Source: a virus. From it: a stretch of DNA of 24,512 bases. The stretch covers positions 1 through 24,512 of the IMG/VR virus record IMGVR_UViG_3300009537_000167, one strand, 5' to 3'. Of this stretch, positions 14,053 through 23,300 are shown in pieces (position 1 is the stretch's first letter; each line of letters opens with the position of its first letter). The notes under the pieces were generated by a model, which saw nothing but the letters and a program-made list of their open reading frames with translations, made no database searches and was not told the origin of the DNA. Position numbers and translations under genes: made by a program.

Positions 14053-15290
14053 TTCTGGAAGTTCCCAACGATGCTCACATTGTTGCCCGATTTTTTAATA
14101 TCAATTACCTTCATCCCCACAGCTAACATAAGATTCTTAAGACTTTCTGAATTATAGGCATGCTTGTGTTCCGGATTCATAATTATGCCGTCAATCTCGT
14201 CTTCATCAGGAACGGCAATAATCAATTTCCCGCCAGGCCTTAAAATCCTTTTCCATTCCCCTAGCGTTTTAAAAGGGTCCAAACAATGCTCCAGGATATG
14301 CCTCGATATGACCATATCCATCTTCTCGTCATCCAGCGGGATCTTTTTAGATACGTCTGCCTGAATATCGGCGATACTTTTCGTGGATGATAGATTCGGG
14401 ACATTATCACCATTTTTTATAATATCCACCCCGATAGAATTCTCGACAGTTTTTTTCCCTCCGCAGCCTAATTCAGCGATATGGACCTCTCCGTTTATCA
14501 TTGCCCTTATTGTATCTCCTTCAGAATCTGTCTGGTCATGCTTCACATCACCATACGCCAATCCAGATAGGCATTGAAAGAAATTCCTGAATCCATGTTT
14601 CTGTATCAAATATTTATTAGTTAGATCCGACATCTCCTGTGAGTTCCACCCACCCTTGACCGTGTGATCTCCCCGCACTCTATTACCCGTCACAAATGCG
14701 TGGTGAATGATAAATGAATCCGGTTGAATTAGGGACACATAGTTGGCCTTATTAAATCTGATAGATAAGTCAAAATCATCTCCACCTGGCAATGTCGTAT
14801 CTATCCCGCCGACTTCATCCAGATATTTTCTCCTTATCATAACGCAAAAATAAATCAAATAAGAAGCCTGCGTAAGACGACAAGGACTATTGGGATGATA
14901 AATAGATTGGGCGCCTGCCGCTACAGTTGTGACGGGTCCGACAGCGGCTACCTCTGGATTTCTAAATGGAGCCAATAGATTCTGATAGAAAAATGACGAC
15001 ACTTTTGGCAGGAATGTGTCGTCATTCTGGAAACATACAAACTTGGCGTCGCTATGCTTTAATCCTAGCTTAAGCCCCTTCTCCCATCCCAGGTTTTCCC
15101 CGGAATTAATAACTAGTATTTTATCCTGAAAATCACGAAAATCTTTTTCGCACGGTTGATTCCCATTATTAACAATAATAATGCGGCCAAAACCATCAAG
15201 GGTATGCGTGTTCATGATAGACTTGATGCACGGATTTAGGTACTCAGGATTATTCCAACTTGGAATTATTATGTCGAACATGTGGCTCAT
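14049..15290 (-). CDS. Bifunctional GT2 glycosyltransferase + SAM methyltransferase fusion (413 aa)
   Basis: Residues 1-210 are a GT2 domain. FDIIIPSWNNPEYL opens the fold, IIIVNNGN (37-44) and NSGENLGWEKGL (62-73) follow, then FQNDD (87-91) as the nucleotide-sugar/metal motif and GGDDFDLSIRF (169-179) as the catalytic-base region. Residues 265-413 are a class I methyltransferase. AELGCGG (272-278) is motif I, VISRHILEHCLDP (327-339) matches the Methyltransf_11 H-x-LEH block, and LRPGGKLIIAVPD (350-362) follows. The protein probably transfers a sugar and methylates it, or modifies two acceptors in sequence. ATGA overlaps exist at both ends. The domains are clear; the substrate is unknown. Confidence 0.85.
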   Translation of the reverse strand: MSHMFDIIIPSWNNPEYLNPCIKSIMNTHTLDGFGRIIIVNNGNQPCEKDFRDFQDKILVINSGENLGWEKGLKLGLKHSDAKFVCFQNDDTFLPKVSSFFYQNLLAPFRNPEVAAVGPVTTVAAGAQSIYHPNSPCRLTQASYLIYFCVMIRRKYLDEVGGIDTTLPGGDDFDLSIRFNKANYVSLIQPDSFIIHHAFVTGNRVRGDHTVKGGWNSQEMSDLTNKYLIQKHGFRNFFQCLSGLAYGDVKHDQTDSEGDTIRAMINGEVHIAELGCGGKKTVENSIGVDIIKNGDNVPNLSSTKSIADIQADVSKKIPLDDEKMDMVISRHILEHCLDPFKTLGEWKRILRPGGKLIIAVPDEDEIDGIIMNPEHKHAYNSESLKNLMLAVGMKVIDIKKSGNNVSIVGNFQK

Positions 15291-22154: not shown

Positions 22155-23009
22155 CTACCGAACTCCTGCTAAATCCTCAAAAAAACTCCCCATTCGCGTC
22201 AGCCTAGGACCCGCCGCCTTCTTGTGCCACCAAGACCACGTACCATCATCACTCGACTTATGCTGTATCTTCGACGGAGCGTTCCAGACATTCACTCCCT
22301 GACTCAACGCATCTATCAAATCGTCATGAACGTTCCTCGGAAACTCCAGTAACTCGTTCTCTAAATCTATCAACCCGTGCCGGTGCATGATACCACCCGC
22401 CTGGTACCGAGGGATCAAACCCCGTATCCGCATCGCCTTCTTCTCCCGCGTCGAGGGCTGGTACTCCTCTAATACAAAATGCTTGTTGCGCTTTAACATC
22501 TCAGAACGCAGTAACGTCAAAAGCATAACTTGAGCAGCAACAGACTCAATGTAAGTAACCCTAATGCTAGGATATACCACGTGTAATCGGAAAATCTCAT
22601 TGATTAACTCCTCCGTGTTCAACCGCAACTTCAATGCCTCCATCACATACACAATGTTGTCATCACAAATTCGCGTCAATACAATCCCCGACGGATCGTT
22701 GCTCTGCTTGAGCGTAAAAGCAGGATCAACAAATAATTGATCCACACCATGCTTCGGTAATTCGTCATACCGACGAACCCACTCCCGCTTGAACTCAATC
22801 GCATCATCGTCCACCGGATCGTTCAGCTGCTGCGCACTATAACTGAAACTTCCCTTCGCAACTTTTAACTCGTCTAAATATTCAAAATCACGGCCCCGCT
22901 TCTGCGCCTCCGCTAACGCCTCCGGAGTGCGGCTTACCTTGAACTTCTCAGGGAAAATAACTTCCCCGTTCTCTACCGCTCGACGAATGTAAACGTCAAA
23001 CCCGTTCAT
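22155..23009 (-). CDS. terL: Large terminase, nuclease half (284 aa)
   Basis: The product starts MNGFDVYIRRAVENGEVIFP, the linker and start of the nuclease domain in phage TerL proteins. The RNase H-like nuclease signatures are present: Asp95 and Asp105 in FVDPAFTLKQSNDPSGIVLT, Glu155 in VTYIESVAAQ, and Asp229/Asp230/Asp233 in HDDLIDALSQG. It lacks the ATPase domain, which is encoded by the upstream gene at 23223-23942. The ATG overlaps the preceding stop (ATGA) and has no good ribosome site, so translation probably depends on the upstream small gene. The two halves are in the same reading frame. Cutting of concatemeric DNA at packaging is the expected role. Confidence 0.85.
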   Translation of the reverse strand: MNGFDVYIRRAVENGEVIFPEKFKVSRTPEALAEAQKRGRDFEYLDELKVAKGSFSYSAQQLNDPVDDDAIEFKREWVRRYDELPKHGVDQLFVDPAFTLKQSNDPSGIVLTRICDDNIVYVMEALKLRLNTEELINEIFRLHVVYPSIRVTYIESVAAQVMLLTLLRSEMLKRNKHFVLEEYQPSTREKKAMRIRGLIPRYQAGGIMHRHGLIDLENELLEFPRNVHDDLIDALSQGVNVWNAPSKIQHKSSDDGTWSWWHKKAAGPRLTRMGSFFEDLAGVR

Positions 23010-23300
23010 GCCGCCGGTGCCGTATCACTCACACTATCACTGGGATAATTTAATCCCACGTACTCCCCGCCATCCCACTCACCACACCACTCGTGCCCAG
23101 GAATCATCGGATGGTGCGGAACTAAATTATCGTCCACCAACGGAGGATAGCGCTTGCAAAGTCCGTAGTTCTTACCCTCCATCTCTACCCTGTCCCAGTA
23201 GATACAATCTTGGCATACATCCTTAGGCAGCGACATAATCCCTCCACCTCAACCGATCTTCCGCCGTCTCAAACTTCTTCCCGTTCACACTCACACTCTC
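23001..23300. repeat. Short direct repeats bounding the insertion in the terminase gene
   Basis: The plus-strand octamer CCCGTTCA occurs at 23001-23008 and 23280-23287, exactly 279 bp (93 codons) apart, in the same phase, both encoding Asn-Gly. Next to it, CACTCACACT occurs at 23026-23035 and 23288-23297, extended to 12 of 13 matching bases. They bracket the four-cysteine gene and the terminal 20 or so codons of the ATPase half. The paired repeats look like the scars of an insertion or duplication inside a once-continuous TerL gene. Confidence 0.65.
23006..23236 (-). CDS. Small four-cysteine (WCGEW-type) protein between the terminase halves (76 aa)
   Basis: The protein has Cys8-x2-Cys11, Cys27 and Cys51, with the surrounding pattern CQDCIYWDRVE, GLCKRYPP and HEWCGEWDGG. 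This C..C..W....C.RYPP....WCGE(F/W) layout is one I recognise from small, probably metal-binding, phage-associated proteins of unknown role. It lies in a different frame from both terminase halves, overlaps the ATPase half by 14 bases, and overlaps the nuclease half start as ATGA. GGAGGG lies four to five bases before its ATG. Its stop may feed ribosomes to the nuclease half. It might act with the terminase, but that is inference from position. Confidence 0.74.
   Translation of the reverse strand: MSLPKDVCQDCIYWDRVEMEGKNYGLCKRYPPLVDDNLVPHHPMIPGHEWCGEWDGGEYVGLNYPSDSVSDTAPAA

Follow-up and report, generated by a model that had tools for sequence, protein, structure and literature searches.

The window analyzed here, a 24.5-kb linear virus record, encodes the large terminase subunit (TerL) on two separate ORFs with a small gene for a four-cysteine (Cys4) protein lodged between them (Table 1). 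The split is real: the TerL domains sit on two ORFs parted by in-frame stops and do not form the single polypeptide expected of a TerL. We consider it likely that a small phage gene interrupted a once continuous TerL gene, yielding a two-polypeptide TerL that would be start-stop coupled in translation and assembled non-covalently.

Architecture of the split terL locus

Table 1. Coordinates of the terL parts, the intervening gene, the repeats and the portal gene in the window
Feature	Coordinates	Strand	Remarks
terL part 1	23942-23223	minus	239 aa; ATPase core with PRGHLKSS (Walker-A-like), DVIIMDD (Walker B) and GTRW (coupling)
Cys4 gene	23236-23006	minus	76 codons; motifs CxxC, GLCKRYPP, WCGEW
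terL part 2	23009-22155	minus	284 aa; residues 4-63 are the C-terminal part of the ATPase domain
Portal gene	22015-20144	minus	next ORF after the nuclease ORF
Stretch between the two TGAACGGG copies, right copy included	23001-23279	minus	279 bp
Left composite repeat, AGTGTGAGTGTGAACGGG	23280-23297	minus	decamer and octamer contiguous, 18 nt
Right interrupted copy: AGTGTGAGTG, 17 nt, TGAACGGG	23001-23035	minus	same 18 nt as left, split by 17 nt

The first part of TerL is native up to about residue 215 and continues into a 24-residue tail (SVSVNGKKFETAEDRLRWRDYVAA) without counterpart in its relatives, the last 18 residues of the tail being the translation of the leader of the Cys4 gene; the ORF ends in ENESVSVNG-KKFETAEDRLRWRDYVAA and a stop. 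The second part opens with MNGFDVYIRRA, in a frame identical to that of the first, and from about residue 64 comprises the hinge and the RNase H-like nuclease. The Cys4 gene overlaps both parts, by 14 bp at the end of part 1 and by 4 bp (ATGA) at the start of part 2. These coordinates and sequences agree with the first-pass annotation, which had reported a foreign tail on the ATPase half after ENESVSVNG, the MNGFDVYIRRA start in the same frame, and an insert holding a complete four-cysteine gene with an AGGAGG-like site, seen here as GGAGG ahead of its ATG.

As the contig is metagenomic and known from assembled sequence alone, an assembler might have joined a small gene of another phage into terL. 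Such a chimera is very improbable: the gene overlaps are exact on both sides, and the G+C content of the Cys4 gene (0.52) is near that of the terL parts (0.50 and 0.49).

In profile comparisons both parts match the TerL family phrog_38 (E 3.7e-29 for part 1, 3.1e-38 for part 2), and part 1 is 36-50% identical to continuous TerLs. The P-loop ATPase residues of part 1 (K62, D161/D162 and G199-T200-R201) are invariant or nearly so when aligned with 12 relatives, and those of the RNase H-like nuclease in part 2 (D95, E155, D229, D230 and D233) are invariant. The structural model of part 1 (pLDDT 85) matches PhiV-1 TerL with a VIA Z of 23.0 and T4 gp17 with 18.5-18.7; residues 65-247 of the part 2 model match D6E TerL (VIA Z 16.3) and residues 361-560 of T4 gp17 (15.2), the nuclease fold giving Z 13-16 against solved TerL nucleases. 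In the part 2 model, confidence sets in at about residue 67, with residues 1-66 mostly low; this is as expected if these residues depend on part 1, and could also result from an alignment as shallow as 13 sequences. In the new tail of part 1, a strand (218-220) and a helix (227-238) are predicted with falling confidence, and one might speculate that the tail covers the exposed edge of the sheet in the ATPase.

Position of the cut and relationship to continuous TerLs

When the two halves are aligned to intact TerLs, no TerL residue is lost at the join: GTRWAMGDLYQHIIENE and FDVYIRRAVENGEVIFPEKF of the window match stretches that are uninterrupted in the relatives, as in the alignment of IIEN(E)/FDVYIRRAVENGEVIFPEKF with VLSAEREFYDVMVRQVVENGKIIFPKKF of the contig L017. 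Part 1 has 24 residues without counterpart beyond the point where its alignment ends, and part 2 has three (MNG) ahead of the point where its alignment begins. As SVSVNG is unmatched in the relatives, removal of one repeat and the insert, earlier said to restore a normal linker, gives a linker that exceeds that of most relatives by a few residues.

The cut comes about 12 residues past the GTRW motif, still within the ATPase domain, and the hinge is about 64 residues further on. In the profile alignment to PhiV-1 TerL (8dgc), it falls near residue 216, whereas the nuclease match starts at residue 295; in T4 gp17, the counterpart of part 2 residue 65 is residue 361, where the separate nuclease domain starts. 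Part 2 therefore opens with about 60 residues of ATPase domain, and the cut leaves the hinge whole. This moves the cut away from the motor-nuclease linker, where the first-pass annotation had placed it, to a point ahead of the closing segment of the ATPase domain. Its broader proposal of a small gene that invaded terL fits the two ORFs, the continuous relatives and the lossless join, with the invaded site revised.

Single-sequence and profile searches of IMG/VR recovered about 40 distinct contigs with TerL relatives. Wherever both domains lie in the contig and the standard code applies, TerL is one ORF. The nuclease match, where found, is always in an ORF of at least 411 codons (L023 excepted), the shortest of these ORFs being truncated by the contig end, and for most contigs the ATPase match lies in the same ORF. 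In distant contigs the ATPase half has no tblastn match (in L019 and L020 it is the nuclease half that has none), and the ORFs are full-length at about 480-560 codons. The TerLs of the podovirus-like contigs (L001, L007-L012, L016, L017 and L021) have the same domains and motifs as the window, and the TerL-portal neighbourhood of the window recurs in L001-L003; they differ in being encoded by one ORF of about 475-530 codons with no intervening gene, that of L017 being longer with an apparent intein. Such apparent inteins lie in the HDDL motif in L017 and at one site before CQxMN in L006 and L030. L023 was rejected as a second split case because TGA is read through in its TerL, apparently as glycine. 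Several in-frame TGA codons occur in its frame 1 terL, and one stands in for the glycine of Walker A (PPQH*KST), which looks like TGA=Gly recoding. H17 and H22, in each of which the ATPase match covers two features, were also rejected, as they combine an overlapping upstream gene with a continuous TerL.

In a maximum-likelihood tree of 13 TerLs, which has a midpoint root only and some long branches, the window nests among continuous TerLs, with L016, L018 and L022 outside it and L017, L021, L009 and others on its sister side. L017 and the window have in common a 17-residue extra segment past FPEKF, where VVENGKIIFPKKF of L017 resembles AVENGEVIFPEKF of the window. Since the relatives that can be judged are continuous and the window nests among them, the parsimonious reading is that the split state derives from a continuous TerL. 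The split allele is known from one contig, and no close relative has the same split; searches with the nuclease half alone or with the portal returned no close relatives in IMG/VR, and the ATPase had no prophage relatives in GTDB genomes.

Packaging genes are normally continuous, and the inserted gene may have inactivated terL, leaving a defective or recently mutated variant. The occurrence on a single contig would be in keeping with this, as would the mildly low ratio of part 2 to part 1 identity, which is 0.59-0.79 in pairs involving the window, whereas continuous pairs average 0.83 (SD 0.10), L016 pairs being similar. The latter points to possible mild relaxation or faster evolution of the nuclease part and fits relaxed constraint or adaptation alike. 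However, all three ORFs are intact, with tidy overlaps and neither frameshift nor internal stop, the catalytic residues are kept with nothing lost at the join, and the same kind of split is present in MW202554, a phage genome annotated as complete and circular (see below). We therefore regard inactivation as unlikely.

The Cys4 gene and the nature of the insert

The octamer TGAACGGG is found on the minus strand at 23287-23280 and 23008-23001, 279 bp apart and in the same codon phase, just as first described. By itself it was rejected as proof of insertion because octamer repeats are common here: about 60 occur within the same 1788 bp, and the probability of one at these two edges is about 0.03 in phase and 0.07 in any phase. 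The second repeat noted beside it, the decamer AGTGTGAGTG (23297-23288 and 23035-23026), is also present, but its copies are 262 bp apart in different codon phases and the right one stands 17 nt off the octamer. The joint presence of decamer and octamer at both edges has P 0.0003-0.0017 (three null models, the stretches having been picked post hoc). The description of the insertion as repeat-bounded, weak on the octamer, thus becomes suggestive with the decamer, the two together hinting at, without proving, a duplication that borders the inserted segment.

A length divisible by three and a repeat at each end could also mark a self-splicing element with an ORF, such as a small group I-like intron, that is spliced from the RNA to give a continuous TerL. 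There are precedents: group I introns split terL in Twort-like phages (PMC5618024) and Bastillevirinae (PMC11878797), and in Jug phages terL is split by introns averaging about 206 nt (PMC12363816). These genes resemble the window in having TerL ORF fragments separated by another ORF; they differ in that their RNA is spliced, whereas the window lacks a ribozyme signal. Rfam covariance models run on the insert gave no match at gathering and only two unrelated chance matches up to E 10, the 279-bp stretch with its flanks folds no better than shuffles (z -0.26), and 231 of the 279 nt are a protein gene of a conserved family, which leaves little space for a ribozyme core. Modeling of the insert as an intron, a check that the first-pass annotation had proposed, hence makes this reading improbable. 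The terL homolog UL15 of herpesviruses also has its coding sequence separated by unrelated genes (PMC3079670), but as spliced eukaryotic exons, with the intervening genes on the opposite strand. An intein or split intein was rejected, there being no room for splicing segments in the 24 extra residues past part 1 and the three ahead of part 2; Pfam reports no intein match at the split, a search that also misses the apparent intein of MW202554.

In T4 gene 60, ribosomes bypass a gap of about 50 nt, and a stop directly follows the take-off codon. Bypassing of the 279 nt in the window would likewise give a continuous TerL, and matching take-off and landing codons (TGAACGGG in the same phase) are available for it. 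Yet both the gap and the placement of the stop differ from those of gene 60, with 18 sense codons between the putative take-off and the stop, and no unusual structure emerges from the fold mentioned above; such bypassing is barely credible.

As judged by its conserved cysteines, the intervening gene encodes a member of a sparsely represented phage family of Cys4 proteins. The same four cysteines recur in proteins of the IMG/VR contigs L054, L055 and L056 (tblastn E 3e-6 to 2e-4 among candidates), and in L056 the gene lies between those for the head-maturation protease and the major capsid protein. The protein has a weak profile match to phrog_15838 (E 0.034), as do all family members tested; at the sensitivity used, the family was found neither in named phages nor in GTDB genomes. 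Its product is probably a small metal-binding protein that can occur in head-gene operons, and the gene would be an independent passenger or accessory gene. Another small Cys-rich ORF (20154-19876, minus; CSGCGN..CDQCGN), with a GTG start and without a clear family, directly follows the portal gene.

Four genes of the contig start within ATGA overlaps, at 15290, 14052, 13432 and, for the nuclease part, 23009. None of them has a Shine-Dalgarno sequence, whereas most other genes of the contig do. Because part 2 shares this arrangement with the three other genes, its translation is likely coupled to that of the Cys4 gene. The first of those genes (15290-14049, minus, 413 aa), in a run of ATGA-overlapping genes, matches phage methyltransferase families in its C-terminal part and looks glycosyltransferase-like by eye in its N-terminal part.

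A second split TerL and a putative two-polypeptide motor

MW202554 (Podoviridae sp. ctLwi270, Manatee Spring) has two CDSs annotated as 'terminase large subunit' with a 62-codon gene between them. Its first piece, which contains an apparent intein recognized by eye and unreported by Pfam, ends past the first nuclease helix; the second piece starts just ahead of VDPA, and the junction has a stop/start overlap, TGATG. Rfam has no match at this junction, and close relatives of the nuclease piece were not found in IMG/VR. Like the window, it distributes TerL over two ORFs with a small gene between and an overlapping stop and start; unlike the window, where the cut is inside the ATPase domain, it is cut just past the hinge, after the first nuclease helix, and its intervening gene is unrelated to Cys4. 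Since cut site and small gene both differ, the two splits are independent. Both spare the hinge, which is suggestive only, given that there are two cuts, and both avoid the point at which the linker of T4 gp17 was cut.

Thus, we propose that a small phage gene cut a continuous terL, creating a three-cistron stretch from which one mRNA would give three proteins by translational coupling across the 14-bp and ATGA overlaps. Parts 1 and 2 are predicted to associate non-covalently within the ATPase fold, the FDVYIRRA strand and the next segment of part 2 completing the ATPase domain, while the mechanically critical hinge would stay covalent within part 2. That the parts may package DNA in trans gains plausibility from MW202554, as a second independent split with a small intervening gene of its own. 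A T4 review reports that gp17 cut at the linker in the laboratory, a two-polypeptide TerL as in the window, kept its ATPase and nuclease activities and lost translocation (PMC3012670); the natural cut in the window is about 64 residues upstream of where this one maps. We tentatively raise the possibility of a naturally split motor, in which the end of the ATPase is supplied in trans by the hinge-nuclease polypeptide, cuts before or after the hinge are tolerated and cuts within it are not, and the Cys4 protein is perhaps a third subunit.

In the literature searched, outside which most subscription journals lie, we found no description of an unspliced two-polypeptide TerL. With its break within the ATPase domain, the form in the window adds a new type to the fragmented genes of phages, and the closest known arrangements are the intron- or intein-interrupted TerL genes and the spliced herpesvirus UL15. 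The covalent link between ATPase and nuclease in TerL is a central question for models of viral DNA packaging, and two natural splits that spare the hinge make its role directly testable and offer a ready-made split motor. Surveys that use full-length TerL as a marker gene may overlook such phages or count them twice.

Two further features of the window were noted. The gap between terL and the portal gene (22154-22016, minus), without a match in Rfam, contains two tandem hairpins, the first of them terminator-like (AACCGGCGAT..ATCGCCGGTT followed by TTTTTTT), and a mutually exclusive pairing of GGCGATGCGGGT with ACCCGCATCGCC; with a fold z of -3.15, it is attenuator-like. Further along, the major head protein gene is closely followed by a free-standing HNH endonuclease gene (17658-17047, minus).
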